Part shown: piece after piece, positions 9,456 to 63,556 of the stretch
How positions within the stretch are numbered: the first letter of the stretch is position 1
How the letters are laid out: each line of letters begins with the position of its first letter
Source of the DNA: Chloranthus sessilifolius
Lineage: Eukaryota; Streptophyta; Magnoliopsida; Chloranthales; Chloranthaceae
DNA: 64,000 nucleotides
Reading direction: 5' to 3'
Assembly (NCBI GenBank): GCA_021018995.1
Contig: CM037584.1
Coordinates: 142,617,317-142,681,316 of the forward strand
Notes under the pieces: model-generated
Databases searched by the model: none
What the model saw: only the letters and a program-made list of their open reading frames with translations
What the model was told of the DNA's origin: nothing
Made by a program: the position numbers and the translations under genes

Positions 9456-9669
9456 TGTAGACACCCCCATTTTTCCCTTTCGAAATATACAAAACCTTTT
9501 TGGTCAACCTTTGACCTTGCCACGATCTCTAGAAAAGGACTAACCTTCTCTCAATACTTTAAAACCCTAATACGGGGACCATCCACTGAAACAATAGTAC
9601 ATGGTCAAGACCCAGGCTGAAATAATAGCCCTGTGGCTCGGACCCGGCTCAAACCCAGGAAAATCCCTA

Positions 9670-10245
9670 ATTATGCACCCTGTATAGCACGCATAACTCG
9701 AATGCATACCCCATGGCTGGTACACAATTAGTCCCTCTTGGACCAGGATTTCACTTCCTGAGGACCGCCTAGACCTTGATTATGCGCCCTACCAGGTGCG
9801 CACAATCATATTGCACGCTTCAATACCAACGTGCAATTAGTCCGCTTTGGACTGATCATCCAAGCTTCTAGAAACTGCCTGAGACACGATTATATGCCCT
9901 ATCTGGAGTGTGCAATTGAATTATGCGCCTCAATACAAGCGCATATTTGGTTCCTAAGCTAACCCGATCTCTAATTTCCTAGACCGCCTGAAAATTCCCT
10001 ATTATGCGCTCTTAATCCAGCACATAATTGATTGAGCGCACTACCTAGAGTGCACAATTGGTCTAATTAGACTAGGACTAGGCTACCCGGCTGAGCCAGT
10101 CAGCCTATCACTCACTGAGTCAGTCACCGACTCAAAGTGATTGAGCACCTGATACTGAGTGCATATTCCATTGAGAGCCCTAGACTGGGCGCATAATTGA
10201 AATTCACTGACCAATTGTATGCACCCCATAGGGCGCACAATTGGC
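9670..10245 (+). repeat. Inverted-repeat array in solo LTR U3
   Basis: At least seven imperfect inverted repeats with arms like ATTATGCGC and GCGCATAAT separated by about 10-12 bp, for instance near 9780, 9815, 9890, 9985, 10035 and 10210. They fill most of the region upstream of the TATA box at 10254. Confidence 0.75.
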
Positions 10246-10253
10246 CAAATACC

Positions 10254-10261
10254 TATAAATA
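10254..10261 (+). promoter_or_regulatory. TATA box of the solo LTR
   Basis: CCTATAAATAGGACCC lies directly downstream of the inverted-repeat array. The Tat C LTRs have TATAAAAG at the corresponding place. Confidence 0.6.
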
Positions 10262-10384
10262 GGACCCACCACCACGTCCCAAAAACACATCAATTCTTAT
10301 CACAAGGACTTCTCTTGAGTCCAGCTTCCAAGCTTAGGATTTGGAGATCCTTCTCTGTGGCTCTGGCCTTAGGCATGCTTTCCT

Positions 10385-10740
10385 TCTAATTTTTTATTCT
10401 TCTAGTTCTAGTTCTTAGTTCTAATTCTTAGTTCTAGTTCTTAGTTCTAGATAGTTAGTTCTAGACCTTAGGATTTTAAACTTTTAGTTCTAGATCTTAG
10501 ATTTTAAATCTCTTTAATCCTTAATTCTTATCTATTTTTCTTTTCCCTGGTTCTAGTTCTTAAGCTCTAGAATCAGTTCCTTTTTTTTATTCTAGATTTA
10601 GGTTCTATCCCTCTAGTTATTAAATTCTAGATATTAGATATTAGGTTTTAATCTAAATTTCTAGTTTTCTGATTTTAGTTCTTAATTTCTAGAATCAGTC
10701 CTTAATTTCAGTCTTGAAACTTCTTTTTTAGTTCTAACTT
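10385..10740 (+). repeat. Degenerate TTCTTAGTTCTAG-type repeat
   Basis: Repeated variants of TTAGTTCTAG run for about 350 bp downstream of the TATA box, probably in R or U5. The corresponding region of the other LTR copies is similarly A/T and purine-biased but more diverged. Confidence 0.6.
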
Positions 10741-11550
10741 GATTATCAAAATTCTCGATTTTCGATCCGTAAATCCATAATTCGTAAATTAAACATTAGT
10801 TTTTTACTCCATATTATTACTAAAATAATCCCTAACGAATCGATTTGCCCAAGGGAGCTTACGGAGGGTACCCAGGAACGGGGCCGATCCTCCTTAGCAT
10901 AACAGGCCAAAACCTCTTTTTTTTTTTTTTTTAGCAAAATTAGTATATTTACTTTAATTAGAATTTTAATGGAATTAGTATATTTTTAATTAATTAGAGT
11001 TTCAATAGAAGTAGTACTGTCCTAATTAATTTTCATAGAATTAGCATATTTGCATTCCAAGTAGGATTAGGAGACTTAATTAATTAGATTAAAATATTTA
11101 AATTAATCAGACTTAAAGTTAGATTAGGAGACCGAGTTGAATTAGGATTCCCCGATTAATTAGACTTCTAATAGGATTAAAATTGATTAGATCCCTGATA
11201 GTCATAGCAAGAGTAGGAAAGGTAAAGTAAGTAGAAGAGAATTAGGAAAATTAGTTTGACTAAACTTATAGGCTACCCAGTATTGCTGACATCGGCCGTC
11301 CGATGATTCGGTAAAGAGAACAGCCCATATCTCTACATCGAAAGGCGTGATCAATGACGTGTTGCAGCGTTGATAAACATCTACAGCTGGCGATCGCAAC
11401 GAACCAGGTATTTCTTTGAGATTTACCACTTCTTTTTCAATACTTAATTACCTCTAAAAACATTGTCTTTGCCAGAGTCCATTCGACTGAATTGGGCCAC
11501 TCTTTCAGGGGACCGAAAGGAACCCAGAAAAAGTGCATACCAACAATATG

Positions 11551-34400: not shown

Positions 34401-36244
34401 ATTATGTTGACCAGCAGTATGAGGAAGACGAGATAAGAAATAGCGGGGCCTACGCTAGGGCATTGACCAGCCTTAACCCTCCTCCCATAATTGCCCACCC
34501 CTTGGTAGCCCAGAGCGAAGTTTAACTAACGGCCGAGAAAGCGGCCCCTGTATCGAAAGAGTCAGAACAGCTGAAAGAACAGTTGGACAAAATACAAAAG
34601 CAACTGATGAAAATGGGTGGTGCTAAAATCCACGCCATGGACTTCACAGATTTATGTTTGTTCGCTGAGGTCCCCCTTCCCCCCAAATTTAAAATGCCGA
34701 CCTTTGACAAATATAATGGCACTGGAAATCTTATTGTGCTCCTGAAGTCCTACTGTGGGGGCATGCGCCAATACGGAGGGGACGAAAGACTACTGATAAA
34801 AGTCTTTTAGAAGAGTCTGACCGGTCCAACTTTGAGATGGGTCACATCTTTAGAACCATCCATGATGAAAACGTGGAGGGACTTAACACACCTCTTTCAA
34901 GAACAATATGTCTGCAATATAGACATTAAGCCGCGAAAGTCAGACTTGGCCCATTTAAGACAGAACCAGAATAAGACCTTCAGTGACTACTTAGGACGTT
35001 GGAGAGCAGTGGCAGCTCAGGTCAGAAATAGGATACCTAACGATGAGCAGATCAAAATGATTTTAAAGAATACTTTGCCAGTGATCTCAGGCTTTTTGGT
35101 GTACTAGTAGCAGTCCAACTTTACTGATTTGGTGAGAAATGCTAACCGATGTAAGGATGCCATCAAGGAGGGCCGTCTGAATAAGAACGTGCCAAGTGGA
35201 TCCAGTGGGGTTAGGAGATTTTTAGAGCAAAGAACTGAGAAGAGGACAGGGGACAATGTTCAAAACATTGCTAATACCAAGCCAAATAATAATATAACCC
35301 CGTTTCAATTTTAGGCAGCCCCACTAGCACCAGTTAGAACTGAACAAATGCAGAGAGTAGGGACTGGACAAGGAATACAAATGACTCTGGAACAGAGAAG
35401 AGTCCGCTACGATCGAGTGTTCACACCTCTGGGGCAATCTTTGAGTGTAATTTTGCCTTTATTAGTAGAAAAAGGGTTAGTCACTATTCGTCAACCGCAA
35501 CCTCCTCCTCATCCAATCCCAAGGAACTATGACCCAAATACCCACTGTAATTTTCATCAGGGTCTGGGTCACCCGACTGATTGTTGCTTCCCCTTGAAGC
35601 ACGTAATAAAAGATTTGATTAACACTGAGAAAATAATTCCACCAGCACCCTCTCAAGAAAACCAGTATGCAAACATCCATCAACTGCCATTACCCCCACA
35701 CGCTACCGGAGGAGCAGGTCCCAGACCCACCATCGGGATGATAAAAAGTGAAGAGGAGTTTGAGTTTGACCCATCCGATTACATCAGTGATCGAGAAAGT
35801 TATGTAGTGCCATTGTCAAGGAATATTGAAGAAAGAAACATTGGGGTGATTGAACCCCTAAATTTGTCAAATTATTTCCCCAACCTGACTCCGCAAATTG
35901 AACCCTTGGATCTCAGGGCATACTTTCCATCACCCACCCTCGTCAATTATATGCACATAAATGCATATCAGCCATACACCACCACCCCCGTCAATTACCT
36001 AATAAGCCATCAGGCCCCCAATCCTATGCCCACACTCGTCAATTATCCATGGCCTACACCCACCCAATTGCCCCCAGTTCAGCCACCTGCAAACTCCACC
36101 ACCCCAGTCAATTACCTAACGACCCATCAAACGCCAAATCCCTCGCCAGCACCTACAAGCTTTTAAAGGCCTACTTTTGCTTCCTTCCCCCAATACCACC
36201 ACCCTCAAGAGTCACCACCCCCATCTGGCCTAATTTTGCCACCC
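34400..36244 (+). pseudogene. Tat B gag (broken, then interrupted)
   Basis: Capsid-like region of a Tat-lineage gag. Seen in order: an acidic/coiled part (EQLKEQLDKIQKQLMKM), the conserved opening LPPKFKMPTFDKYNGTGN, LLIKVF-stop-KSLTG (TAG at about 34808, where Tat proteins usually read FQxSL), LRWVTSLEPSMMKTWRDL, FSDYLGRWRAVAAQV, then FTDLVRNANRCKDAI and a zinc-knuckle-like CNFHQGLGHPTDCC. A Pro-rich tail with repeated NYL/VNY words follows. Stops and small shifts occur at about 34527, 34808, 35105 and 35313. The frame is cut at 36245 by Tat C and resumes at 63557. Confidence 0.88.
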
Positions 36245-36249
36245 AACCC
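36245..36249. repeat. Left target-site duplication of Tat C, AACCC
   Basis: Repeated exactly at 63552-63556. Confidence 0.88.
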
Positions 36250-37845
36250 TATTGGTGTGCGCTTTTTCTAGGTTCCTCTCTGTTCCCGTTGAATAAGTGG
36301 CTTCCAATTCTATCCTGTTGGACTCTAGCGACATGGTGTGTGATAAGGTGGGGATAAATAGTAATAGGAGGAAATTCCTAGGATGATTCCTAGTTGATTT
36401 GTGATCGCCAGCTGCAGATATTTATCGACACTGCAACACGTCAATGATCACGCATTTAAGCGGGTGTGGGTTACTTCTATACTGAATCGTCCACCTGCGA
36501 CCATCAGCAATAGTGTCCTCTTTTAATTAGATAGTTTTAGCTTTCTTTGTAGTTTCCCTTGTTGCTGTTATGGTCGATTTAGATTCTTTTTTTTTGTTAT
36601 GAATTATGATTAGGTGAGCTTATTATGATGGAATATTTTAGTGTCCTGATGCTATCAGGAGTCCAATCATTTTCAGTTTCTTGGTATCATTAGGAGTCCA
36701 ATTAATATCAAAGTCTTGGTAATGCTAAGAGTCTAATCAGTTTCAATCTCCTACAAGTACAAGGACTGCATGTGTATCAGTTCCAATAATATTCCGATTA
36801 AACAAAAGAGTCCAATTATATCGCAATTCTAGATAAAGCAGGTAAACTAATTTTATTGCAATTCTAGACAAGTAGATGTATCAATCGTATGGCAATCACA
36901 ACTAAAGCACTTAAGGTATCCTTACTAGCATTCTAATTTGAAGAAAACAAAGACTAATCTTTTTTGGGATTTTTGATTGAAGCAATAAATCAATTTAGTA
37001 AACTAGAAATAAATGATTGAGGCAACAAAATTAACTCTATTTTTTTTAGAATCATAATCTACGAATCAATTATGGTAAAAATCTAACTAATAATAAATGA
37101 ATTAACTTTCCTAAATTCTGGTTGAGATAATAAAGTGATTGAACTAGAAAACTGAATTAAATCAAAGCAAATAATGATATGAAGGCCTATTTGATGCAAT
37201 TAGTCAATTAAATTGAAATAAAAAAAAACCCTAAACTATAATTAACTAGTTAATCCTAAACAATCTAAAAAAAAGGGGGGTTGGGCCCGCTATGCTAAAG
37301 AGGATTGGCCTCGTTCCCGAGTACCCTCCGTAAGCTCCCTTGGGCAAATCGAATGGCTGAGATAAAAGATAGGTCGATAATTGAATAATAAAAGGGAGAT
37401 TTTTAGAATTGAATTCGAAATTATAATAAGAAATTAGATTGAGAAACTAAAGTTATGAACTGAAATTTATATTTTTTTAGATTTTTGACGGTATGAAAAT
37501 ATAGAATTAAGTTATAGATTAAAATTTAGGACTGAATTCGGGTCCAAAATCAGAAAAACTAGGACGTATGATTAAGGACTGGTTCTTAACTCTGAGAGTC
37601 AGAACCAAAAATTAATGATAGGATTGTAGATTAAGATTTTAGAGTAGAATCAGAGCATAAGGTCAATATGTCGGACCGCTAGATTAAGAACCGGTTCTAG
37701 AAATAAAGAACTAGAACCAGATATAGAGAATTTCGGTCCGAAGAGGGTGCTACGTTCTAAAAATTAAAAATAGAATTGAATAATTAAACTAAGGGCAAAA
37801 TCCTAAGTCTAAAATAAAATTAAAGTCGTACCTAAGGTCAGGGGC

Positions 37846-38140
37846 TGTGGAGAGAAATCTTGGAGTTCGAATATTAAAATCATGGCTAATTTGCTCTAGG
37901 GATCCGTTCTCGGAGCTCTCTGGTTTCAGAATTTACGCTCTCATTTCTCAAAATTTGTAACCTCTAGTGTTGTGTTTGAAGAAGATGCTACGGTCTAAAA
38001 ATTAGAATTGGGGTTGAGGTGAGAAATCTCGGAGTTCGAATAATAAAATCATGGCTAATTTGCTCTAGGGATCCGTTCCCTGAGCTCTCTGGTATCAGAA
38101 TTTACGCTCTCATTTCTCAAAATTTGCAGCCTCCTTTTCT
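37846..38140 (-). repeat. 169-bp tandem duplication in LTR
   Basis: GAGTTCGAAT...ATCATGGCTAATTTGCTCTAGG words recur 169 bp apart (GTTCGA at 37865 and 38034). The other LTR has the same duplication at the same spacing (62583 and 62752), so it predates insertion. The solo LTR at 9456 lacks it. Confidence 0.8.
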
Positions 38141-38157
38141 CTCTTTGCGAAAAAAAG

Positions 38158-38165
38158 CTTTTATA
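38158..38165 (-). promoter_or_regulatory. TATA box of Tat C 3' LTR
   Basis: The minus strand reads CCTATAAAAGC. The same sequence is at 62882-62875 in the 5' LTR, where it would drive the element RNA. Confidence 0.6.
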
Positions 38166-38184
38166 GGTTTTCATTCAATTACGC

Positions 38185-38600
38185 GCCCATTTTCAAAAGT
38201 TTAACTGAATTGCGTGCTAGTTTTCTAGCACTTAATCGCTTTTAGTTGATCATCGACTCAGTGAACGACGGGCTGAATTACTCAGCGGGTTTCCTAGTCC
38301 TAACGAAATCAGACTAATTAAGTGCATGGTGGGACGTGCGTAATCCGATTAAGCGTGTTACCTGAAGCGCTTAATTGAGGAAATGCAGGAGTCAAGGGTA
38401 GGAGACTAGGTCAGGCATAGGCCAATTGCGCGCTAGTGGCGTGGCGCTCAATCCAATCGCGCATCTGTTTCCAGGCACGTAATCGAGTCTCGAAACGATC
38501 TGTGAAAGGAAGGCTGGTCTGAAAGGGGACTGATCGCGTGCTTGTGGTTCTACGCATGATCAAATTATGCATGAGTTTTTAGGTACTTAATTCAAGGTTG
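38185..38600 (-). repeat. ATTAnGCGC inverted-repeat array in Tat C U3
   Basis: At least six pairs of arms of the type AATTGCGTGC/GCACTTAAT, GATTAAGCGTG/AAGCGCTTAATT, AATCGCGC/GGCACGTAATCG, spaced 10-12 bp apart. It lies immediately upstream (minus strand) of the TATA box. The partner LTR has the same array at about 62895-63320. Confidence 0.78.
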
Positions 38601-38833
38601 TCCGGATATGGTCTCAAGAATGGAATGTAGGACTATTGTTTCAGTCTGCATTCCGACTATATACTATTGTTTAGTATATAGCCTCCCTATGTTGGGATCT
38701 GAGCCACAAAGCTATTATTTCAGCTTGTGTTCAGCCATGTACAGTTGCATGGTCCCATGTCAAGGGTTAAAAAGGTGAAGGGCTGACCAAACTAATTCGT
38801 GTACTTCGAGAGGGCGAAATGAGGGTGTCTACA

Positions 38834-38846
38834 GATGCCCCTCTTC
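38834..38846 (-). other. Polypurine tract of Tat C
   Basis: The minus strand reads GAAGAGGGGCATC directly before TGTAGACACC of the 3' LTR. Confidence 0.75.
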
Positions 38847-41800
38847 GGTGCGCTCTTGCGAAGTAAGAACGCATCGAAGAAGTAGACACCCCTCATTCGA
38901 GGTGCCTTCCTATTTCTTGGGAATTCACAAATGTGAATTGGTGATGCTGACATGGCAAGCTTGGCTTTCTTATCTATCAGCGCAAGCTAAAGTGGAGCAT
39001 TTGAAGGGCAAATGGTAGTTGTCGAAGGGCATATTTCGGGTCTGTGGGTGCATGGCGCATCCCGTCGCATTGCGCGAGCTAACAGAGGGATTTTACGCAA
39101 TTGAGGTACCGGGACATCAATCAAATGTCCAAAACAAGGTTCAAGGACCGATAATAAAGAGATGAAATAGTATGTAGTATCGAGAGCTTTTGCAAGTCAT
39201 GTCAGACCGAGCGCATCATTGCTCACACCAATGCGCGTTAGGCATTCCATTTCTAATAGGCATTTGTAAGTTCTTAGATCGAGTATACTCATTTTTTAGC
39301 TTCCTAGGGGAATGGTTGATTTGGGCTGGTAATTAAGGTAAATTTTGTGAAGTGTGCTCAGTTGAATTTTGCGCAGTGGCATATGCGCTCGATTCATCTG
39401 AAGTCATTTTTTTTTATTATTTTGCATCTGAACAAGCGATCCTGCACAGTGGCGTATACGCTTGATTGTGAGTTCAGAGGGCTTTGGGATTTAAAGGTCA
39501 AGGCTAAGTGTAGTTGGTTGTGGTATTTAAAGAAAGGTGAGTCGGGTCTATATATTATGTTCATTTTGTTCTTTTTCTTTTTCGCTTTTTTTTTTCTTTG
39601 CAAGTAAGAGAAGAAAGATTCTCGAAATAAAAGATTTTAGAATGAGTAAGGGATTTTAAAATTTTGGGAATTTTAACTTAAGATCAATTCAGTGGTAAAA
39701 CGGCGAAAAATGTGGCTTTCGAGATGTCGTTGAGCAGCTCCACCGATACGAGATTTGTGGACCAGACTGTTTATGCAGTTGTCAAGATGACACTTGGCAT
39801 GCCGGATACTCCATCTAACCTTCTCGACAAATACTGATGATTTTCTCTTATGGGAGGACTACAGTAATTCACTGGTTGAGAGAGACGGGTTTTGAAAATA
39901 TTTTGACTTAATCATAGATAATTATAATTTAGAAGAAATATCGAGTAATTGAAAGGGGGTAATACTTACCTGGGGGTGATACTTACCTAAATTGTGTAGT
40001 GAGACCTTGGGAGTATTGTAGCGGTGGTACTTTGGCAGTATTGTAGCATCATGATGGGACATGGTGGCTATCATTGTAATGTAATGTTTCGGGTGCAATG
40101 TCGTAGTAGGGTACCCTTTTTTCTTCGCTTGTTGCTTAAGCGGTGGTTGGCGGTTGTCGGCATGATGTCGCGATGGGGCTTTGGTGATTAGTGGTACCGC
40201 GATGGGACTTGGGAGGTATTGTTAGGATGTTTGTGCTGTAGCTCGACAGTAGTGAAATGCGCTGGGGCATGGGAGTAGTTCCACGTCTTCCTGCCTTTCT
40301 GTTACAGTGGCGTCTGGTAGGTTTGTGGTGGGCACTTCGAGAGGGGGCTCTTTGTTTTGTCGATGGGACGTGCTCTTGCTTTTTCCCTTTCTTCTTTTAG
40401 TGCGACTGGTGTTGTGAATGATTTTTTTGGGTAGTAGTGTCCGCGATGGGAAGTGAGATAAACGCTATGCTGGGTAGGGTGTTAATGTGATAAGTGTGTC
40501 TAGTTTCTTTCTTTGGCAGATCTCAGGTTCTGATGAGATTATGCTATTGTTGTGTTGTGATTGACTTAGTTTTTTTGGTTGTTTGGTGTATTTGCATTTT
40601 TGAGAAATTTGTTTTTGTCTTTTCGCGATGGGCCATGAGGGCATGACAACAATTTTGCGATGGGACTGAACGTTAGGGTGGTATCATGTGTGTGTGTGTT
40701 TTCATTGTGGTGGGACGCGCTTGAGTGGCTGCATGACAGGGCGAGATGGTTTCGATTAAGATGAAATGAACGATGTGGTGAGGGGGTGATGGTGTCACGT
40801 GGGGCATATATGTTTTGTCTGTAATAGGGCCAGAGGCGTGGTCAACGTTCTTTTTTTGGTTACGCTATGGGACAATAGCGAGTGATAGTCCCTTTTCACT
40901 CTGACTGACTCATGAGGCTATGCGATGGGACAAAGGGGACTCTCATTCGAGAAGGGGTAAATTTCGGGCAAAGTCAGGAATTAAGCGCCTGACATCAGCC
41001 GCTTAAATTGATCGCGCGCCCGATTCCAGGTGGGCAATTTAGGATCTAAAGGAAGTATTTACACATGTGTAGGTTAACTTGTGATTGGATTGTGCGCAAT
41101 GATCCTTGCGAGTGATTGGAGCATTATCATGTCATCGGGCAGGTGACTTTTCGGTCTTGAGCGTCTACTGTGACGTTTAAACCGATTACGTGACATAGCA
41201 GGGGGGAGGGATTGGAGAGTCACCAGGTCACTATGCGGGTGACCTTTCACATTGAGCGTCAACTATTTGTCATTCGATTGGATTGCGCGAATTGTAGAAA
41301 GCGCGACATTGGGAGGTCGCTCTATCTGTGCGGGTGACAATCGTATTGCGCACTTGGTTAGGAACGCAGGTTTTGGATTGTGCGATATGTGTGTTGCGCG
41401 TGATTAAATTAAGCGCATTTTTCCATGCGCGTGATCAGGGCCATGTTCTATGTAAGCGGGGGAGCTTCATTTTCATTTCATTCTCGGGTTTAGTCTCGAG
41501 TCTTGACTATTTTTAGTGTTCTAGCATTCTGAGATTTGTGTTTTAGCGATATTGAGTGATCTAACTGTCAGATTGGGATGGGGTTTCTTCCTATATTCGT
41601 CATTTCGCGTGATCTTCATCCTAGCGTGATGCTCATGGGAGAGTATTATTCTGAGAATGGGCGGTATTGGGAATGAGGGCACCAGTCTTCACACCGTTCC
41701 TTTCTAGGGAGCAGTGAAGGCAGTGTTGATGGGGTGGCGACAGAGGAAGTGAAGATGGCAGGAAGAAGAGGTGCTATAAATGGAGGGATGTATCCCTAAC

Positions 41801-43700
41801 CCATTTTCCGTCTCTTCTGTCGGTGGCTCGTTTAAGTTTTCCAAGTTTGGTGGCAACATTTCTGAAGCCTTTGATTGGATGTTCTGCTCATCGTTTTGGC
41901 TTATTATAATTTTAGTTTTCGTTTTGAGTTGTATGTTAGATTTTAGGTTTTCGTTTTGAGTTGTAATTCGGGAGGTATGCCTCTGGTGATACTTGTAAAA
42001 CTTTAAATTATAAATAAAAGGGGTATTTTTTTTTTCCTTATATTGTATAGTTGGTTGGCTTGAATTTTGGTTGATGGATTAATTGGACTTATCTGCTTTG
42101 TCGTAGTTTTAAGATTTGAGTTAGCTTATAGTTTTAAAGTTCGTTATGAGAATGACTCAAGGTTTATTCATTCGTCCTATTAGGTCCTACTTAGTAGGTT
42201 CACTTGAATTTTATCAGGCTTATTTGGGACATTTTTTTATTTTATTACTCTCGTTTATTGATTTGATTTATTTATGGATTAGTTGGATTTATTTGATTTG
42301 TTTGATTTTAGGATTTAATTTAGTTTAGGGTTTCACTCTGGATTTATTGAGGGTTTATCTCAAGATTAATTTATATTATTGAGTTTTGTTTAGAGGGTTT
42401 ACTTGGTTCTGATGGGTTTGTTGGGAGCATTTCTTTTTTGGTCCCAAACAAGTCATATTCTAGAAAATTATTCTTTTATTTAAAGTTTAAAGTATTTTGG
42501 TTTAGTCTTTTTATTTGATTTGAGATTACACTTGTTAGAAGCGTATGGATTCAAGGTTTAATTTAAAGTTTCTAGATGGGTGTTAAGTGTTTGAATCCTA
42601 TTGGTCTATCTACACTTGGGGAGTTTATTTCTTTTCTTAGAGGGGCAAGTATCGTGTGATTATTGGTTCATCTTGGTTATCATGGATCGTGGTCTTTTAC
42701 AGGGGTATGTGTATGGTTTTGGATTCAATTAGCTTGGTAGGGGGTTCAGATGTGTGGCATTTGTTAGTTGGTGATTCAAGGACATAGTTTATAAAAGTCT
42801 GAGTCTGAGGTTTTGGGTTTGAATGTTTTGTTCTCTTATTTCAAGTTTAAAGTTTGAAAGTTTTCTTCCTTTTTTTTTGTTTGGGGCATCTTGTGTTTGT
42901 AATTTTGGGGCATTTTTTATTTGTTTATTTATTAATGTATTTTATTCCTTTCTATTTCTTATCCCGGGTGTTGGACCCGATGGACTGTGCTTATTAAGTG
43001 GATATGAGAATGGACGGGCTTGGGAATGCAGGGCAGCAGTCGAATTGCGGCCATGCTAAGGGAAGAGGGGAAGATAGGATTTTCGGTTTTTCGAATAGAT
43101 CCGGATTCGGGCGTTGCCTGAACGAGCGGATTTTAAGTTTCTTGTTTTGAGTTGTATATTCAGAGGGTATACCCTCGGTGTATTTTGTAATTATTTTATT
43201 GATCTATAAAGTGGTTGTGTTCTCTATATCTTTTGTCTTGTTTTGGTTCGACTTTCTCTGTATCGCGTTTGACTCATGTGATGTTTATTTGTTTGGGTTT
43301 AGTTTAATTTAGATTTATTAAATTCAGGGAGCACCAGGGGTAGTTTCCCCTTCTTTTTTGTGTTTTTTTATTAGCTTTAGCTTAAGGGATATAGAGGCAT
43401 TTGGGGGCATTTTTTTGTTATATATGTTTTTTGTTGGAATGTATGGAAGATGGGGGTTACCTTTTCTTTTTGGTGTAATTGATGAATGTGAAGGAGAGTG
43501 CATTTCTGTCGTATGGCCTTAGTCTTGGGGGCTCTCTTTTCCTTTCGGGGCGTGTGTTTCTTTAAATTGGAAGTGTTTTTGGTGGTTTTCTCAAGGGTGT
43601 AATTCGGGTCGATAGTAAATATCAGGAATGTCCTAATTTCAGGTTTTGGCTTGTGTCTTGGGTGGGAAACTTTTGTTTCTGGGCAAATTACACGTTTATC
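38847..43700 (+). other. Tat C 3' region, non-coding, with promoter-like modules
   Basis: No credible protein on either strand. Contains GCGC-arm inverted repeats at 39050-39480 and 40975-41460. A dispersed GCGATGGGAC word occurs about ten times at 40050-40935. A TATA-like box lies at 41775. Two similar downstream blocks, GTTTTGAGTTGTA followed by GAGGTATGCCTC (about 41958) and by GAGGGTATACCCTC (about 43147), look like paired 3' ends of short plus-strand units. Transcription of these units is inference. Confidence 0.55.
41775..41782 (+). promoter_or_regulatory. TATA-like box downstream of an inverted-repeat array
   Basis: GTGCTATAAATGGAGGG lies about 300 bp after the array at 40975-41460. 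No ORF follows closely. A short non-coding transcript ending near the AATAAA-like TAAATAAAAGG at about 42011 is possible. Confidence 0.4.
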
Positions 43701-43714
43701 TTCGGGCATTTAAT

Positions 43715-44030
43715 CTAATTACGCGCCAAAATTCGAGCGTGCATTTCGGAAGGGTGAAGAGTTATCACGCGCTAGTTCATAGGCGTTTAATTCATTTAAT
43801 CGTTGGAATCTCTGCGCAGGATGAACACGACCGCTGGCATTCATGCACTGATGTGTAAGCGTTTGAGATGATTACGTGCTCTTAGTAACACGCATGATCA
43901 ATTGGTCAGATAGATGTGAGTGGGCAACAGACCATTTGCGTGCTCATCAGTGAGCGTGTGATCCGAATTAAGTGTTTTATGAGTGGCGCGTGATTCATTT
44001 AAGCGTTTTATTTCAAGTGTGCAATTCGGG
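43715..44030 (+). repeat. ATTAnGCGC inverted-repeat array upstream of the PMD gene
   Basis: Pairs such as AATTACGCGCC/GAGCGTGCATT, TTATCACGCGC/GGCGTTTAATT, GATTACGTGC/ACGCATGATC and GAATTAAGTG/GCGCGTGATTC repeat through this stretch. They have the same arm sequence and spacing as the arrays in the Tat C LTR U3, and end directly before the TATA box at 44038. Confidence 0.75.
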
Positions 44031-44037
44031 CGACTTC

Positions 44038-44045
44038 TATAAATA
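44038..44045 (+). promoter_or_regulatory. TATA box of the antisense PMD gene
   Basis: CTTCTATAAATAGTTTAG lies 170 bp upstream of the proposed start codon at 44215 and just after the inverted-repeat array. Confidence 0.6.
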
Positions 44046-44214
44046 GTTTAGAACTTCTCATTTTCCTCACGTGATCCATTTTAGTCTTTGATTCTCTTAT
44101 TTCCTAGTGTTTGTGTGCTCGTTTTTCATGTTTTTGGGATATCCTGTGATTCAGTCATCTATTTCGGGTGCCGTTTCCTCCATTTTCTTCAATTTTTTGA
44201 GCTCTTTGTATCAG

Positions 44215-47200
44215 ATGGAGGGTGAGGGTGTTGGTAGGCCGAAGCTCACTATTTCTGAGTTAAAGGGGATGTTGATGAGCAAGGGAGGTGAGAGTTCGGG
44301 GGCACAAGCTAGAGCCGTTGCCATAGAGGTGGATATCAGGGAGATGGTCGCGGAGAGAGTCCCCGAGGGTGACTAGATGGTGGTCAGGGAGAACGTACCC
44401 GAGGCTGTGCCAGGGGTAGCCGAGGAGGAGGGCGATAAAGTTGAGGGTGAGCAGGGTGAGGAGCAGCCACGCGGTGAGCCTCAGGATCATAGGCATTATC
44501 CATTAGAGGATTTCTTTGTCAGAGGCCGGGTAGGTCCCCATAAGCAAGAGTTCTTCCATTTTCTTGAGCATTTAGACTATGACATAGGCTCGTTAGGATC
44601 CGTAAACCCTTATAATTTACGTCGAACCTGCATTGATCATGGGTCGTGTTTACTTGTGTATTATGATAGCATGTCGTGTTTAGTTGTTCTTATCATGTTT
44701 TGTGTGTTCGTTGTAAGTTATTATTATGTGGTTTGGGTGTATTTCATCTGCCTGTGTTTTAAATTTGTTTATCTTTCATCATAGGTGTACGTTAGTCTTA
44801 CTGTCATTGTTTGTATTTCGTTCAATAAGAGCCCCCGCAACTACCTATCAACACGGCATGGAGCGAGTCTCATATTTGGTACCATGCCTTGCCGAAGTTT
44901 CAGTGGGAGCGATTGGTGTCCTTCAGGTTTGGGACGATTTTGGAGTTGGAGCCTTTTCAGGTTGATCGGGGCTTGATCGCGGTGATTATAGAGAGGTGGA
45001 GCGAGAGGCATCAGGCGCTTCTTTTTCCAGTCGGTATGATGCTGCCGACCCCTGAGGACTGGGTCTGCATTACTAGTCTTCATTTTGAGGGTGAGCCAAT
45101 CATGGGGTGGATGGCAGGGAGTTACTTAGAGGTATGTGAGGAGATCCTGGGTGTGCCTTATAGGTTGAGTGGATCGGGGCCCGGTGTTGTTCGGGTTACT
45201 TGGTTTTTCGATACATTCGCGAGTGGGTTCACTCCTCCGAGGTGTCATTCGGAGGTAGCAGTGGTTTATGAGGCACGTTGTGCGAGGGTGATGGGCCGAG
45301 AGCCTATGACCAAGCCAGGATTGGTCGTGAATAGGGTGCTCCGAGCATTCTTGATGCACTTCTTGGGCATAGTACTTTTCTCTTCTTCCACTCGGGAATG
45401 CATCACCGGGTTATTTTTGATGATTCTGAGGGATTTAGATCGAGTCCTAACCTACGCGTGTGGTGCAGCTGCGTTGGCGCATCTCTACGAGCAGTTTTAC
45501 CGTCGGGGTCAGGGAATAGCATCGATCGGAGGTTTCCTCCCATTTCTCTAGGTGAATTTTAGTTAAATTGGTGTCGTGGTGACCCTTTTTTTTTAACCTT
45601 TGGTCATAGTGACGATCTTAATGTTTGTTGTGTGTGGTCGTTGTTGTTATGTTATCATTTTCAGTTTTGGGCATACGATCATTTTGCTTTTCTGTGCCCG
45701 AGGGTTCTGTCAGAGATTTTGTTCATGATCCCGCGGATGCTTGTGTGGAGGGAGGCTTTGAGGGGTCATTGCTGGTCGGCTGACCTTCAGACTGCACGAG
45801 GCCTCTTCGAGGATATGCATGCAGGGCAGGTATGTATATGGCGTTTATGTTTTCATTTGACCTCATCTATTTTTTTTTTGTGGCCCTTAGGCTTCACTCA
45901 TGGATTGATTTGTTCCTTTGGATAGGTGATCTGGAGACCTTATGATGGTGTAGAGGACGCGGGTGAGGCGGTGATTGAGTCGGTCGGCCCTTCTTCGATG
46001 TGGACATATGGGTCCATTGTTTTGAGCCAGTGGAGAGGATGCACACCTCTCGGTGGTACGACAGCTGGGACTCGATCAGGGAGTCCCTCCGACGACTAGC
46101 CACAGGGGTGGCTAAGAGGATGACCGGCCCTTTAGGCCAGGATTTTACAGAGTGGATGGCACTCTAAATAGCTGATTTCAGAGCCGGGGAGACCAGAGTC
46201 ACGGGGGCGCGTGATGAGGTTGATGTGCAAGAGTATAGGAGGTGGTTTGGCGCGTTGGGTGGTGGGTGTCTCTTCACGCATCCTTTTCATGGCAGTGATT
46301 CTTTCGTTGTCGGTGGGCCGGAGTCGGCGTCAGCATTGAGGGAGAGGTTGGTTGCATTGGAGGAGGGCCACCTCATGGTGAGTGTGCGGGGAGCATTGGA
46401 TGCCCTCCATAGGGTGATGGAGTAGATGGGGCATGCTCCTCATCCTGATGAGGAGATGTTGCGTTCTTTGACTGAGTCAGTTGCCAGGGCCAGAGCGGCA
46501 GAGGATGAGTTAGGAGTTTGACTACCAGAGGCTCGACAGCTCCTGGGGAGTTAATTTATTGGTTTTAATTCATCCATGCATTATACTGGATTATTCTAGT
46601 AATTTTCTTAACATAGTGGTCTTGTTTTTATCGTGGCTAGTCTAAGAGAGAGTCTGAGGTTGCTCGCCAGGCGGCGATGATCGAGCTGTTGCGCGGCCAG
46701 CAGCTGGTGGGTCGTGCGGTGGAGGCTAGTTTACGTTCGGAGATCGAGCGATTGGTAAGTACCTTGGATTGGACTTATTAACTATTGACTATTCAGGGAT
46801 CCTCGCTAATGTTGGCATATTGGAGGCATTTTTAGATAGCATAGCTTTCTGCAGCAGGGGTTTCGGCTCGAGCATTTGCTCCTTCAGTGGCCTCCTCCAG
46901 TTGGGAGGATCCAGTGATAGCTCGTCTACGATCTAACTTGGAGCATTGGGTAAGTTCCATCACTCTTCAGTTGACTTGTGTTACTATACTGGTTTGCTAT
47001 GCGTTATTATTATATTAGCTTGATGGTTTACTAACGTGTGCCAGAGTTTCAGCGTCGGGTTGCTGAGGACTTGCAGATGAGGGAGGCGACCGCCGCCTCT
47101 CTACGTTCTGAGAGTCAAGTATGGTTTAGTGTAATTTAGTTTGGGTTGTTTATTTCTATTTATTCTAACACGTTCGTATTGGCTTGTTGTTTGTTGTTTT

Positions 47201-48093
47201 TTTTTATTGCTCAGGCCGTTCCGGACTCTGCTCCCGAGGCTCCTCCTCAGGGGTCCATTCCTATCCCTACCCAGGTATGTTTTAGTCATTGGGTTCGTAA
47301 GTTATTTGTTATCATAATATTCGTCTGATGCATTTGTTTATTCTCGTTATAGCCACCTACGTTTGTCGTCCCTCGGGCACCATCTGCTGATCCTGTGACC
47401 ATGGAGACGGTCGAGCGACTTCTGGGAGAGAGGTTAGATCTGATATATGTGTATTTTTCATTTCGAGATTTATTGTTGTTCGTATATGCATATATTTGCT
47501 TCTTCTGATTCATTAGAGTTATATAGGCTCGTCAGCTCGAGGAGGCACGACTAGAGGCAGCGCAGGCAAGCGCCACTTCAAAGGTGAGACGGGTCCTCAG
47601 AGAGGTGGAGAGTCGTATGGATCTGGTGGTTGAGATGCTGGTCACGTAGAGGACTCATGCGGAGGCACTAGCGGCAATCTGTCAGACGACACGGGCAGAG
47701 ATGCAAGTATCTCTGGATCAGTTGTAGTATCGCCTGACGAGGGGCGAGCGGGGATCGCACAGGTCGACTAGTCATCATGAGGGGTCGGAGTCGAGGGCTA
47801 CGAGTTCTTCAGTTGGACAGTCTCGTCATACCTCTCGCAGTCATGACAGGAGTGATAGTCGTGAGGGTTTCGTCGTTCGGGGGAGTCATGCGAGGCTTCC
47901 TCCTCATTCTTAGTCTAGGCGATCGGTCAGTCAGGCTAGTGAGGGGGGTTCGGTGATGGGTCCTTGCCGTTTAGAGGTTCCGAGGACTCCGAGTGCCGGG
48001 ATTGTGTTTTTAGATGATCAGTCTATGAACCTCCTAGCTGACGGTACTAGCGATAGCAGCGCTCATCCTCCTCAGCGGCAGCGTAGGGATTAG
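44215..48093 (+). pseudogene. Plant mobile domain (PMD) gene carried antisense inside Tat C
   Basis: Ten exons can be drawn with mostly GT-AG sites: 44215-44601, 44832-45551, 45665-45829, 45926-~46549, 46641-46754, 46845-46949, 47047-47118, 47215-47274, 47353-47432, 47517-48093; introns about 80-230 bp. The product would be about 970 residues: an acidic N-terminus, a PMD (aminotransferase-like plant mobile domain) in exons 2-4 (PKFQWERLVSF, FPVGMMLPTPEDW, IGGFLPFL joined to FWAYDHF, VIWRPYD, then VHCFEPVERM after a one-base shift), and a C-terminal coiled-coil, Ser/Arg-rich tail. Nine premature stops and the shift make it a pseudogene now. PMD proteins occur in plant silencing factors (MAIN family) and in transposons; a role for this copy is unknown. 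The exon 4 donor is uncertain. Confidence 0.8.
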
Positions 48094-49854
48094 GGGTGTG
48101 TGCGTTTGTTTATATTCGTTGTATGTGCATTGTATATAGGGGGAGTGTCCCTAGTGACAAATGTGAAGAAGAAAAAGAAAGGATTACTTTTTTTTTTTTT
48201 TGGTACATGTCTATATATATAGAGATTTTAGGTTCAGATGTACCTGATTTACTTCTCCTTTGATTTCCTTTTGGTTTTTTCTTTTTGCCTTCGGTGTCGT
48301 CAACCGTCGCTAGGACTTGGATGCTGTCTAAGCTGGCCTGATCCTAGTTGGAAGGTCGCTTTGTGTGTGCACATGTAAAGGTAATGCTATCAGTAGTTTT
48401 GTCCCCCCCCCCCTTGCCAGTTGTCAAGGGGAAAATATCTCAAACCGGGGTCTGGTGAAAGAAAGGTGGATATAAGCCTCTCTTTTTTCTTCTTTTTTTT
48501 TCTTTTTTTTTGACTTTCTCTCTTTTTTCTTCTTTTTTTCTTTTTCTTTTTTTTTGAAATAATAAATAGTGCAACAGGGAAAGAAAATGACAATAGAGAT
48601 AATGATAAATAAAAATAAATAATTAAAAAAAAATGCCCTAGCGTAGAAGCGTGGTTGAGCTTGCAGTACAGTATTTTGATAACACTATCTGAATGGTATC
48701 TTCATCATTCTTCATCTTTTGGTGGTCGGGTCGACGCTTTCGGTATAGTTTACTTTCTTTTCCCATAAAAAAAATGCCCCAGCGTGTGGACGCAATGGAG
48801 CTTCCCTGGGCCTTAGATAAGCATTTTGGGTCTATAAGTAGTCATGGGTATTAGGTGAATTAGTCTTGTAGAAAAGTGCATTGGTACTGTCTCCGAACCG
48901 GGGGGAGGTCCTTTCGATTAATAGCATACGGGGGTCTATCTTGGGGTATTGATCATCCTATTCCGTGGTAATTCGGGAAAAGCATGGTAAGTATAATGGG
49001 TGATTACATCAATCGTCATTCAGTAGTTTTCAGTTTCATTCTTAGGAATATCCTGTGAAGTCTCAGATTCATCGTCCAAAATAAAACTAGAAGGGGGGGA
49101 GGTAAGGCATAGTGATATAGGGAATAGTTCGTAACTAATACCTTTTCAAAAGGGGTAAGTAACAATCTTCTCCTCTGAGGGGTATGGAACGCCATGATCG
49201 AGATCTTCGTCATGCTTTGGTACCATCAAAATCTCGCATTCTCTGGCTAGAAGGGGTTTATCCTCCTCCCGCTACCTTATGACGACATCTAGTAGTAAGA
49301 GAATATCAGGGATGCCCTCGTAGCTTGCTTATACACTTCCAGTAAAATTACTGCAGATGTCCTCATGGCCTGCTTATACTTCTTTGAGTTCATTGACTTG
49401 TTCATTCGTCGTGATGCTCTCTGTTGATATATATTTTTTAATGTATACATTTCTTTTGAAAGCATCCTACTGGCGCAAGAATGATGAGTTTTGATTGAAC
49501 CTAATATCTTCATTTTTTTTGCTCTAATGTCTCCTTCAATGGCGGGGATAGGGAATGAGAATTGGGTGTTTCTTACGTTTTTGAAAAAAAGTTTTAGGTA
49601 GGTCACTGATCCTTCAATCAAATCGCCTGAGTGTAAATGGTGGGCGACAAGTCAAAGATTTTTAAGGATATTTTGAGGATTGAAGACATACGACCAATGG
49701 ATGGGTCGGGATGACTACGGGGATAATAAGTACAAGTATTTTAACCATAGGATGTGATGATCATAAGACTAAGGATAGTATTTTCTAAGGTATATGGCAT
49801 TCCAAGGGCTAGAGAGCTCTTCCCCATCTTGGTTCGCCAATTTGTATGTGTTTC
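48094..49854. other. Spacer between the PMD gene and the integrase end
   Basis: Convergent 3' ends: the PMD gene stops at 48093 (plus) and integrase near 49855 (minus). Just after the PMD stop, AGGGGGAGTGTCCCT near 48136 can form a short hairpin. A CT/T-rich microsatellite lies at 48478-48556. Words like AAAATGCCCYAGCGTGG recur near 48630 and 48770. Minus-strand frames at 49621-49289 and 49213-49016 are not recognisable. Confidence 0.6.
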
Positions 49855-58589: not shown

Positions 58590-59789
58590 ATCTGTTGGTG
58601 CGTGCCTTTTCTGGGTTCCTCTCGGTTCCTGTTGAATAAGTGACTTCCAATTTTGTCATGTTAGACTCTAGCGATGCGGTGTATGTGATAAGGTAGGGAT
58701 AAATAGTAATTGGAAGAATTTCCTAGGATGATTCCTAGTTGATTTACGATCGCCAGCTGCAGATATTTATCGACTCTGCAAAACATCAATGATCACGCAT
58801 TTAAGCGGGCGTGGGTTACTTCTATACTGAATCGTCCGCCTACCACTGTCAGCAGTAGTGTCCTCTTTTAATTAGATAGTTTCAGCTTTCTTTATAATTT
58901 CCCTTATTGCTGTTATGGTTGATTTAGGTTCTTTTTTTTGTTGTGAATTATGATTCGGTGAGCTTATTATGATAGATTATTTTAGTGTCCTGATGTTATC
59001 AAGAGTTCAATCATTTTCAATTTTTCGGTATCATTAGGAGTCAAATTAATATCAAAGCCCTGGTACTGCTAAGAGTCCAATCAGTTTCAGTCTCCTACTG
59101 GTATTAGGAGTGCATGTGTATCAGTTCCAATAATATTCCGATTAAACAAAAGAGTCCAATTATATCGCAATTCTAGATAAAGTAGGTATACTAATTTTAT
59201 TGCAATTCTAGACAAGTAGATGTATCAATCGTATGACAATCACAACTAAAGCACTTAAGGTAACCTTACTAGCATTCTAATTTGAAGAAAATAAAGACTA
59301 ATCTGTTGTTGTCCCAAGTGTGCTTCGCTTATTGGTTGGTGGTGAAAGTTATTTAAAAATCAAAAACAGAATAAAACAGGGGATGAATCAGCAGAACTTG
59401 GAAATCCTAGACCTGCAAGATACAGGGTCCTTTGTAGCAAGTTTTGATAAGTAAGAGTTTGTCCCACAGGGAAAGGTGATCTAAGGCTCCAAGGGAGCCG
59501 TCTCTAGTAGTCCCTCCAGATCTGTCTACAGATCTGGCAGTCCTAAAAGGAGGGGAGTTTAAGGTCACTTATTCTAAGTATTCTAATAACTAAATTACAG
59601 AAAGGATTGAGAGGATGGATGGAGTGTGGAAAATAATTATAAAAAGGTGAGAAATATGTTATTGACCCAAGGTCAGAGGAGTTTTGTAATTCAGATTTAG
59701 ATCTGATGTTAGAGAAATCCTGTCCAGAGGCTACATTATCACCTCTGAGGAGAAAGGATCCAACCCATCTCTACTGCCATGACTCCACC

Positions 59790-60450
59790 CTTAGGGCTAT
59801 AACCTGTCCACTTGAATGGTCACAGACTATCCCATAGGGGAGCCACTATCCAGGGATGGGTCAGAACATAACAAATAAATCATTGCAGGAACTATTTCAT
59901 CCAGGCTACCAGCTCAAGAATCCATAGGGAACCTCAACCTCTAAAGTTCTATATGTGGGGCTAAGGATGGAAAACCATGATAGCCCAGACACATAGAACC
60001 AACAAGCGATTGAGTACAACCTTCGATCCAGCTGTCCATTGCTTGAGAGAGGCTACAATGGTCTAGTCACCAGCCTACAATCTCTATAACCAGATTAGAT
60101 CCAACATCTGATGGCAGATCTATACAAATATGGGGGAGTCTGCCTCTGTACAATCCCTCACCAGGCTTCTCTACAAGCTCAGGTGAAAAGAAGAAGGATC
60201 CATCTTGGATCGGTGGATCAGCATCACCCTAAGGCTATAATTTGTCCACTTAAATGGTCGCAGACTATCCCAGAGGTTATCCTCCTCACGGAGCCCAAAA
60301 CAAAATAAGATTATCGCTGCTACCACCATGTTCACCAGGCTACCAGCTCAAGCTCCCATGGGAATTCTAGATTTAGTAGGTCCTGTGGTGAGGCTAAGGC
60401 TGGAAGACCATGATAGCCCAGACACACAGGTCACTTGGATCTAAGTGGCC
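59790..60450. repeat. Internal ~430-bp imperfect duplication
   Basis: TGTCCACTTGAATGGTCACA (59809) and its variant near 60243, CAGGCTACCAGCTCAAG (59908 and 60337), and ACCATGATAGCCCAGACACA (59971 and about 60408) recur in the same order about 430 bp apart. Confidence 0.8.
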
Positions 60451-60959
60451 CTTAAAATCAGTCCTCCATTGCTTTGAAACACAGCCAAGGCAATGGGGGA
60501 TCACAAGGCAGCAGCCTTACATAGCACATCTCACATATAAATAACAATCCCACCAAGTACAAATCCTATTGCAAAACTTCCATTAATCTAACTCAAACAC
60601 ATACAAAGTCATAGCCAGCAATTGCTGGACTATGGAGAGAAGAAAAGAAAAAGAAAAAGAAAAACTACTTATTGCTAAAAAGAAAGAGAAAAGAAAAGCG
60701 ATCTGAGATAGGTTCCGAGATACCTAAACCTAAGCTAGGCCTGGGTATATATAGCAGTGGGGTGGCGACGCATTAGGGTTAGGAAACCCTAATTTTAATG
60801 ATGCCACGTGGCCTTATACTGATCCTTGGATGCCTCAGGGCGTGTGCACGAAGATTTGAGAGTGGGAGTGCGTGCCAGAGTCATTGGAAATTTCTAGAAT
60901 GCCCCCTGTTGAAGAGATGGAAGTTTAGGTTCAGAGCCTCGCTAGGTAGCTATAGTTTC

Positions 60960-61480
60960 CTAGACTTGTCGCGTGGTAGCTCATTGCTCTTCGCTAGGAT
61001 GGTTTGACACTGAAGCTTCAGCCGTCGCGAGGTTGCCTTGGTTTGCTCTTCAGGCAGTCGCGCGGTAGAGAGTTGAGCTCTCGCTGGGTTGGAGTTCGCG
61101 AGGTTGAATAGAAAACACAGTCTCAAGCGTCGCGAGGTTGCAATTCAAGCAGTCGCGTGGTAGATTAGTCTTCGCTGGGTAGCAGCGCGAGAACTGTGCG
61201 AGCTCTTCTCTTTACTTGGACTTTGCGAGTTACCTCGCGAGGTTCTTTTGAGTTCTGAACTGTGCGAGATTCTTTGTCTCACTCAATCTTCACGAGCTTG
61301 GCTTTGCCTTCGCCAGGATGCTTTCTTTCTTAAATGGCACGCGAACTGCGCGAGGCGTTCTTCTGAGAATTGTACCCCGCGGCGACTGCACGACAGCTGC
61401 GCGAGGAATCTTTTGAAGCTCTCTCAGTCATTCATCTGCGTGAGAGGTTGTTGTAAAGCCTTGGAAAGCTCAGCTGATCT
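60960..61480. repeat. TCGCGAGG/GCGCGAG-rich block
   Basis: More than fifteen CGCGAGG-, CGCGTGG-, CGCTGGG- and TGCGCGAG-type words in 520 bp. They recall the CGCGAGA/TCTCGCG array upstream of the Athila extra gene at 4880-5290. If the solo LTR is in minus orientation, this block lies in U3. Confidence 0.6.
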
Positions 61481-63556
61481 GCGTGAGGCTTCGAAGTGCA
61501 TTCTTGCTGAGGGGCATCTGGTGCCAAAGCAGGCTCCGTAACAGGATTCTTGGCCTTATTTCACTGCTGATTATTTCCTGAACAAAACACTTAAGAAGAG
61601 TTTATTAGGTGGCTAAGGGTCTAATCAAAGGTTAAGTTAAGGGGTGAAAAGTGGTAATTTTCAGGTCTTAACATAATCTTTTTTGGGATTTTTGATTGAA
61701 GCAATAAATCAATTTACTAAACTAGAAATAAACGATTGAGGCGACACAATTAACTCTCTTTTTTTTAGAATCATAATCTACGGATCAATTCTGGTAAAAA
61801 TCTAACTAATAATAAATGAATTAACTTTCCTAAATTCTGGTTGAGATAATAAAGTGACTGAACTACAAGACTGAATTGAATCAAAGCAAATAATGATATG
61901 AAGGCCTGTTCAATGCAATTAGTCAATTATATTGAAATAAAAAAAAAAACTAAACTATAATTAACTAGTTAATCCTAAACAATCTAAAAAAAAGGGGGGT
62001 TGGGCCCGCTATGCTAAGGAGGATTAGCCTTGATCCCGAGTACCCTCCGTAAGCTCCCTTCGGCAAATCGGATGGCTGAGATAAAAGATAGGTCGATAAT
62101 TGAATAATAAAAGGGGGATTTTTAGAATTGAATTCGAAATTATAATAAGAAATTAGATTGAGAAACTAAAGTTATGAACTGAAATTTATATTTTTTTAGA
62201 TTTTTGAAAATATGAAAATATAGAATTAAGTTATAGATAAAAATTTAGGACTGAATTCGAGTTCGAAATCAGAAAAATTAGGCCGTATAATTAAGGACTG
62301 GTTCTAAACTCTGAGAGTCAGAACCAGAAATTAATGATAGGACTGTGGATTAAGATTTTAGAGTAGAATCAGAGCATAAGGTCGGTATGTCGGACTGCTA
62401 GATTAAGAACCGGTTCTAGAAACAGAGAACTAGAACTGGATATAGAGAATTTTAATCCGAAGAGGGTGCTACGGTCTAAAAATTAAAAATAGAATTGAAT
62501 AATTAAACTAAGGGGAAAATCCTAAGTCTAAAATAAAATTAAATTCTTACCTAAGGTCGGGGCTGCGGAGAGAAATTTCAGAGTTTGAATATTAAAATCA
62601 TGGCTAATTTGCTCTAGGGATCCATCCTTGGAGTTCTTTGGTTTCAGAATTTACGCTCACATTTCTCAAAATTTGCAACCTCTCGTGTTGTGCTCGAAGA
62701 GGATGCTACGGTCTAAAAATTAGAATCGAGGCTGCGGTGAGAAATCTTAGAGTTCGAATATTAAAATCATGGCTAATTTGCTCTAGGGATCCATTCTCGG
62801 AGCTCTGTGGTTTCAGAATTATGCTCTCATTTCTCAAAATTCGCAACCTCCTTTTCTCTCTTCGAGAAAAAAAGCTTTTATAGGTTTTCATTCAATCACG
62901 TGCCCATTTTCGGATGTTTAACTGAATTGCGTGCTAGTTTTCTGGCGCTTAATCGCTTTGAGTCGGTCACCGACTCAGTGAGTGATGGGCTAAATTACTC
63001 AGCGGGTTTCCTAGTCCTAATGAAATCAAAACTAATTACGCGCATGGTGGGACGTGTGTAATCCAATTAAGCGTGTTACCTAAAGCGCTTAATCGAGGAA
63101 ACATAGGAGTCAAGGGTAGGAGACTAGGTCGGGCGTAGGCCAATTGCATGCTAGTGGTGTGGCGCTCAATCCGATCGCGCGTCTGTTTCCAGGCGCGTAA
63201 TCGAGTCTCGAAATGGTCTGTGAAAGGAAGGTTGGTTTGAAAGGGGACTGATCGCGCGCTTGTGGTTCTACGCGTGAATGAATTACGTGCAAGTTTTCAG
63301 GCACTTAATTCAGGGTTGTCCGAGTATGGTCTCAAGAATGGAATGCAAGACTATTGTTTAAGTTTGCATTCCGACTATATACTATTGGTTAGTATATAGC
63401 CTCCCTACGTTGGGATATGAGCCACAAAGCTATTGTTTTAGCTTCTGTCCAGCCATGTACAGTTGCATGGTCCCATGTCGAGGGTTAAAAAGGCCGAGGG
63501 CTGACCAAACAAATTTGTGTACTCCGAGAGGGCGAAATGAGGGTGTTTACAAACCC

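Follow-up and report, generated by a model that had tools for sequence, protein, structure and literature searches.

The 64,000-nucleotide stretch of Chloranthus sessilifolius DNA analyzed here (contig CM037584.1, positions 142,617,317 to 142,681,316, called the window below) contains element C, a long terminal repeat (LTR) retrotransposon of Tat/Ogre-like type in which a gene for a plant mobile domain (PMD) protein lies antisense between pol and the 3' LTR. Arrays of inverted-repeat dyads were found directly ahead of the TATA boxes of both LTRs and of the antisense gene; their syntax is shared by the LTR and antisense promoters far above chance, is kept in sister copies and recurs at both places in a sister family. 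It is likely that these arrays form a shared operator through which one dimeric factor would co-regulate the LTR and the antisense gene, and the sequence evidence for a sequence-specific, promoter-linked function of the arrays is strong. The original prediction for this DNA, according to which one element-specific factor could control both strands, is partly supported, the shared syntax being the part that was confirmed.

Dyad arrays upstream of the LTR and antisense promoters

The repeated unit is the dyad ATTRNGYGC-N10-GCRCNYAAT. The half-site ATTRNGYGC follows from the base frequencies of the individual half-sites, and its fuller form is about RATTRNGYGC. The whole 64 kb was scanned with ATTANGCGC...GCGCNTAAT (16 informative bases) at each spacer length from 0 to 30. 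A spacer of 10 yielded 31 matches of at least 12/16, and all other spacers gave 0-8 matches each, apart from spacer 27 with 14 matches, which were taken for a by-product of dyad pairing. The spacer is therefore exactly 10 bp and not 10-12 bp, as had been assumed. Five regions fixed beforehand contain 28 of the 31 matches, and the remaining three lie at 10214 (edge of the solo-LTR array), 39366 (in a small cluster near 39.4 kb) and 43687 (edge of the PMD array).

Dyads of at least 11/16 were counted in the same five regions, which gave 8 in U3 of the 3' LTR, 7 in U3 of the 5' LTR, 8 in the PMD promoter (P2), 6 in a second internal region at 40960-41460 (P1) and 10 in the solo LTR. These counts were compared with 2000 dinucleotide-preserving shuffles per region (shuffle means approximately 0.2), and in none of the five regions was the observed count reached by a single shuffle. 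The motif density at the PMD promoter, which the original prediction had singled out for a comparison with shuffled sequence, withstood this check. The group at 39300-39500 is weaker, as its 2 matches were reached by 3 of the 2000 shuffles. The rest of the window (60,774 bases) contains no match of at least 12 and 10 matches of at least 11.

The dyads are arranged in pairs 31 bp apart, and the three-base linkers within these pairs read YNR in 143 of 148 cases among all loci examined, many of which are related copies. On the minus strand, the U3 array of the 3' LTR (38178-38591) comprises 8 dyads of at least 11/16, grouped into four such pairs, and its TATA box, TATAAAA at 38159-38165, lies 12 bp from the last half-site. 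The U3 array of the 5' LTR (62895-63309, minus strand) has a weak TATA-proximal dyad (10/16), and here, too, the last half-site is 12 bp away from the TATA box (62876-62882). In the solo LTR the array extends from 9670 to 10241 on the plus strand, with its 10 dyads of at least 11 located within 9456-10250, and TATAAATAG follows at 10254 after a gap of 12 bp. The P2 array upstream of the antisense PMD gene, likewise on the plus strand, covers 43687-44025 with its 8 dyads of at least 11 and one further dyad at 10; the array itself had been predicted correctly, with limits of 43715-44030 that are corrected here. Its TATA box, TATAAATAG at 44038-44046, is placed 12 bp past the last half-site. The arrangement of paired inverted arms ahead of a TATA box in both LTRs of element C, in the solo LTR and at the PMD promoter was thereby verified through dyad counts and 12-bp gaps. 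The same is true for the predicted second internal array before a TATA-like box: P1 covers 40980-41435 on the plus strand with 6 dyads of at least 11, and the box at 41449-41457 lies 13 bp past the last half-site. This box reads TATGTAAGC in the window and TATATAAGC in five of six sister copies.

Occurrence of the pattern in the host genome

The patterns were also counted in the host genome assembly (2.17 Gb) together with reversed patterns as controls. Exact dyads, with spacers of 8-14 permitted, were found at 2532 places versus 0 for the reversed control. A half-site followed by TATAAATA at gaps of 6-20 occurs 381 and 365 times (746 in total) versus 3 and 8 (11) in the control, and facing half-sites with gaps of 0-24 occur 651 times versus 2. 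The distances were read from the matches listed, which come first along the first contigs and do not form a random sample. All 50 dyad places listed have a spacer of 10. The gap between half-site and TATAAATA is 12 in 95 of 100 listed matches, 11 in two, and 6, 13 and 14 in one each. Among 50 listed matches of facing half-sites, the gap is 3 in 26, 2 in eight, 4 in four, 16 in nine, and 15, 17 and 22 in one each. Across the LTR loci of other families (29 loci), the distances from one dyad to the next peak at 31 (57 cases), 44 (19), 78-79 (24) and 109-110 (25); a thirtieth locus, L044, was excluded from this count because it represents a PMD promoter. The shuffles and the genome-wide counts of the pattern against its reversed form rule out a chance origin of the arrays. 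In viral contigs, neither the paired-dyad pattern nor a relative of PMD or of the reverse transcriptase was found.

Conservation in sister copies and in a second family

A search of the host genome with the PMD protein yielded 150 scored places among 11,180 candidates. In 29 of the best 30 of these 150 copies, the window's own included, at least 3 dyads are located upstream of the PMD gene. TATAAA is found at 12 bp in 28 of these 30, including four that read TATATAAAT; in copy L009 the gap is 11. Six more distant copies (74-84% identical) were chosen from the 150 by the author, and all six carry arrays at both P1 (5-10 dyads) and P2 (5-9 dyads), with a U3 array of 7-8 dyads in five of them. 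At P2 of these distant copies, TATAAA lies at 12 bp in four of six, and L069 has TATAAG instead.

Comparison of seven sequences for each promoter revealed that half-sites are more conserved than the spacers they enclose, with identities of 0.709 versus 0.486 in P2, 0.750 versus 0.535 in P1 and 0.810 versus 0.706 in U3. When the labels were rotated 2000 times, the difference was matched 0 times in P2, 0 times in P1 and 37 times in U3, and with transitions ignored it was matched 0 times in all three. CpG dinucleotides decay fast if methylated. As the half-sites are conserved over the spacers despite their CpG content, they are probably under purifying selection.

A second family was reached through locus L079, which was picked for two exact dyads 3.8 kb apart, a choice based on the array and blind to PMD. 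This locus was found to contain an antisense PMD gene with identities of 59%, 50% and 68% to that of element C over three pieces, and 5 dyads of at least 11 upstream of the gene are followed by TATAAAAGG. The 3' LTR L039 of the second family has a polypurine tract similar to that of element C just before its start, as well as a U3 array with a TATA box at 12 bp. From their position and orientation, we infer that L079 and L039 belong to one element.

Alignments were obtained within each kind of promoter. P2 aligns at 61.8% identity with both the antisense promoter of L079 (over 259) and P1 (over 233), U3 of element C aligns with U3 of the solo LTR (62.4% over 375), and U3 of L039 also aligns with the solo LTR. 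No alignment between U3 and P2 was obtained at E<=0.01 for any U3 compared, and the sole matches between U3 and antisense promoters are 33-57 bases long and link L039 to P1 and to the promoter of L079. As U3 and P2 have no alignable sequence, one syntax is kept at two otherwise dissimilar kinds of promoter. The missing U3-P2 alignment also rules out that the PMD promoter was recently copied from the LTR.

The antisense PMD gene

The antisense PMD gene extends from 44215 to 48093 on the plus strand, opposite to the minus-strand pol genes, with a start codon at 44215, a PMD exon at 44829-45548 and a last open piece that runs to 48090; the exon limits are the author's reading. The PMD exon matches PF10536 with an E value of 1e-21. 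In the window the gene is broken by an in-frame stop at 44374 in the first exon. Comparison of the PMD piece with a protein database gave 487 candidates, none of which scored, and its single match among solved structures (E 0.93) was taken as chance.

Searching the host genome with PF10536 gave 128 listed matches, and 117 of 20,277 candidates were scored. Three places, G000:C2:182456779-182457852, C6:2320605-2321663 and C2:182470824-182471918, match with 322-331 bits and are free of stops, the rest of the list reaching at most 173 bits, and these three look like host PMD genes.

The fifth base of the half-site is variable. It is A/C-rich in U3 of element C (90 half-sites) and T-rich in the solo LTR (16), and in the second family it is T in 60% of 20 half-sites in U3 and C in 60% of 10 half-sites in the internal array. 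The co-variation of motif and family that had been proposed is not clear for this base, given the few sites, and the mismatch between U3 and the internal array of the second family speaks against simple matching.

Mode of action and alternative explanations

In the proposed mechanism, a sequence-specific protein would occupy the half-site (approximately RATTRNGYGC) as a dimer spanning each dyad, and one unit would consist of two dyads at a distance of 31 bp, or about three helical turns. Units positioned 12 bp ahead of a TATA box may recruit the transcription machinery or protect it from silencing. Besides the LTR promoter, one or two antisense promoters would be served by the same operator, the promoter of the PMD gene among them. 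Because the LTR and antisense promoters carry the same operator, one factor would set the output of both strands jointly, and because the half-site contains a CpG, methylation could gate binding.

Several observations weigh against this shared operator. The gap at P1 is 13 instead of 12 bp. Among the sister copies, the dyads of L018 are displaced and a TATA box is missing at the expected gap, L015 has lost its array and retained the last half-site and the TATA box, and L066 has just 2 dyads at the expected place in U3 and neither TATAAA nor TATAAG at P2. In the L079 promoter the half-site nearest to the TATA box is poor (5/8) and 11 bp off, with 48 bp between the box and the end of the first good dyad. 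The 30 best and the six distant copies are related and do not represent independent samples. Furthermore, in P2, P1 and U3 identity is lower in the spacers than in the sequence around them (0.486 versus 0.721 in P2), which the model leaves unaccounted for. The 10-bp spacers outpace their surroundings in divergence, as if they were free or even favoured to change.

If a shared operator is assumed, the identity of its reader can be considered. There is roughly an even chance that a host transcription factor reads the dyads and that both promoters, having the sites, fire in the same cells. The strict positioning of the arrays ahead of TATA boxes agrees with a host factor; it counts against it that we know of no plant factor with such a half-site and spacing, no motif-database search having been made. 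Another candidate reader of the array is the PMD product, or a partner recruited by it; once bound, it would activate the LTR or lift its silencing and also control the antisense promoter of its own gene, in a self-contained, VANC-like feedback circuit. This circuit is a tentative possibility, suggested by the position of the PMD gene downstream of the array in two families. The host PMD proteins MAIN and MAIL1 are similarly tied to a short promoter motif, termed DOWN, and are described as needed for the expression of genes that share this motif, with direct recognition by their complex presented as one hypothesis (PMC7156037, PMC9899485). However, the DOWN example CATGCAGTTT is unrelated in sequence to the half-site of element C, and the available text of these sources ties the motif to MAIN and MAIL1 without demonstrated direct binding. 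A role for PMD is also disfavoured by a separate PMD family, in which no dyad of at least 12 was found in approximately 2.3 kb upstream at eight of eight loci (one reaches 11); these eight loci align with each other and count as one family. On balance, we lean slightly towards a host factor over the PMD product as the reader of the array.

Two further explanations were considered. One promoter and its array may have been duplicated to the other place, so that the likeness is a relic of common descent. The alignment of P1 with P2 and the TATA-adjacent dyads at 12 and 43 bp in both U3 and P2 (a 2-bp index shift being allowed for the 3' LTR) would fit such a duplication, which is nevertheless unlikely, as U3 and P2 cannot be aligned at the threshold given above and each promoter by itself shows stronger conservation of half-sites than of spacers. 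Descent followed by later selection remains compatible with a shared operator. Alternatively, the inverted repeats that form the arms could have a structural role and fold into hairpins or cruciforms, at the level of DNA or of RNA. Complementary bases are in slight excess at the three outer positions of the spacer (28, 30 and 27 of 80 versus 21.5, 22.7 and 20.5 in shuffled spacers), but each excess is non-significant alone (90-132 of 2000 shuffles reach it) and the two central pairs have none. The variable fifth base is complementary in 33 of 80 cases versus 26.9 in shuffled sequence, and the fixed 12-bp gap to the TATA box is left unexplained by a hairpin. This structural role is thus highly improbable and was dropped for the little complementarity of the spacers.

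Element C and other features of the window

The 3' LTR of element C (36250-38833, minus strand) was identified by its pairwise match to 58592-63551, the 5' LTR on the same strand, which is interrupted by approximately 2.4 kb between 59307 and 61674. Aligned stretches of 1882 and 717 bases of the two LTRs are 91.6% and 90.7% identical, respectively. By eye, the 3' LTR begins with TGTAGACACC at 38833, and GGGTT flanks the element at both outer ends. The minus-strand pol contains RVT_1, RT_RNaseH, RVT_3 and rve in Ty3/gypsy order, with RVT_3 representing a second RNase H-like domain. A dual RNase H is described as a mark of Tat elements (PMC9289625), and 57% of Ogre elements are reported to contain PMD (PMC6317226). 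The order of reverse transcriptase, RNase H and integrase, the second RNase H-like domain and the position of the antisense PMD gene between pol and the 3' LTR place element C with the Tat/Ogre type.

The solo LTR (9456-11545, plus strand) has TGTAGACACC...CCAACA ends and belongs to a family other than C. Two more pairs of long direct repeats, approximately 87% identical, were found at 6875-8293/15097-16512 and 19871-21946/23591-25676; they are perhaps other elements and have no dyad of at least 12 outside the nested solo LTR. An Rfam search of 36000-49000 gave no match.

Between the 3' LTR and P1, two extra dyads occupy 39366-39466, and by eye no TATA box stands beside this group. The group is tandemly expanded in some copies (L065 and L067-L070, at approximately 1770-2180). 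Downstream of P1, an alignment of the window with L065-L070 contains a well-kept stretch at 41458-42018 on the plus strand with an AATAAA at 42013. This stretch is probably non-coding because indels break any long frame. With approximately 0.5 kb conserved up to the AATAAA, it perhaps represents a non-coding antisense RNA controlled by the same operator. Pieces of the P1 unit recur ahead of P2 (41652-42245 and 43005-43423; 60-86% identical), as if an antisense unit had been tandemly duplicated.

Relation to known systems and significance

Sireviruses, for which palindromic, CpG-bearing RM boxes are described just before the LTR TATA box and also before env (PMC2829016), are a closer parallel than the VANDAL elements with their VANC proteins that had been named in the original prediction. 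As in element C, palindromic boxes stand ahead of both the LTR TATA box and an accessory gene. The RM core is CGG-CCG, whereas element C has ATTRNGYGC; Sireviruses belong to Ty1/copia, whereas the domains of element C follow the Ty3/gypsy order; and their accessory gene is an envelope gene in the linker domain instead of an antisense PMD gene (PMC2829016). By analogy, the arrays of element C may work like RM boxes without membership in that group, and a precedent for the principle exists in another superfamily. VANC and VANDAL resemble element C in that dense arrays of a short motif occupy non-coding parts of one group of elements and are linked to one of its genes (PMC5735166, PMC10398659). 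However, VANDAL elements are MULE-type DNA transposons with motifs in the same orientation in tandem repeats, unlike the inverted dyads of an LTR element, and binding and methylation loss are reported from experiments for VANC (PMC5735166, PMC10398659). The aORF-3R genes of Grande, RIRE2 and Retand also lie antisense between pol and the 3' LTR, and gene23 of Grande is reported to be transcribed from its own promoter (PMC7264820, PMC11963269). The aORF-3R genes described mostly encode TRP28, whereas that of element C encodes PMD, and no motif common to the LTR and the antisense gene is described in the available text of these sources. A literature search that covered few subscription papers likewise found no Tat, Ogre or Retand element for which an operator common to the LTR and the antisense gene is described.

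The available text on such elements describes the function of their antisense genes as unknown (PMC7264820, PMC11963269). With a strict, conserved operator at both the LTR and the antisense gene, a regulatory role can be put to a direct test using a bait of approximately 60 bp. If the PMD protein reads the array, the antisense genes of Tat/Ogre elements would gain a function and the plant mobile domain a DNA target, which would also be relevant to the action of the host proteins MAIN and MAIL1 on promoters and silencing. The arrays of element C and the Sirevirus boxes together suggest that unrelated retrotransposon lineages may couple an accessory gene to the LTR through palindromic arrays.

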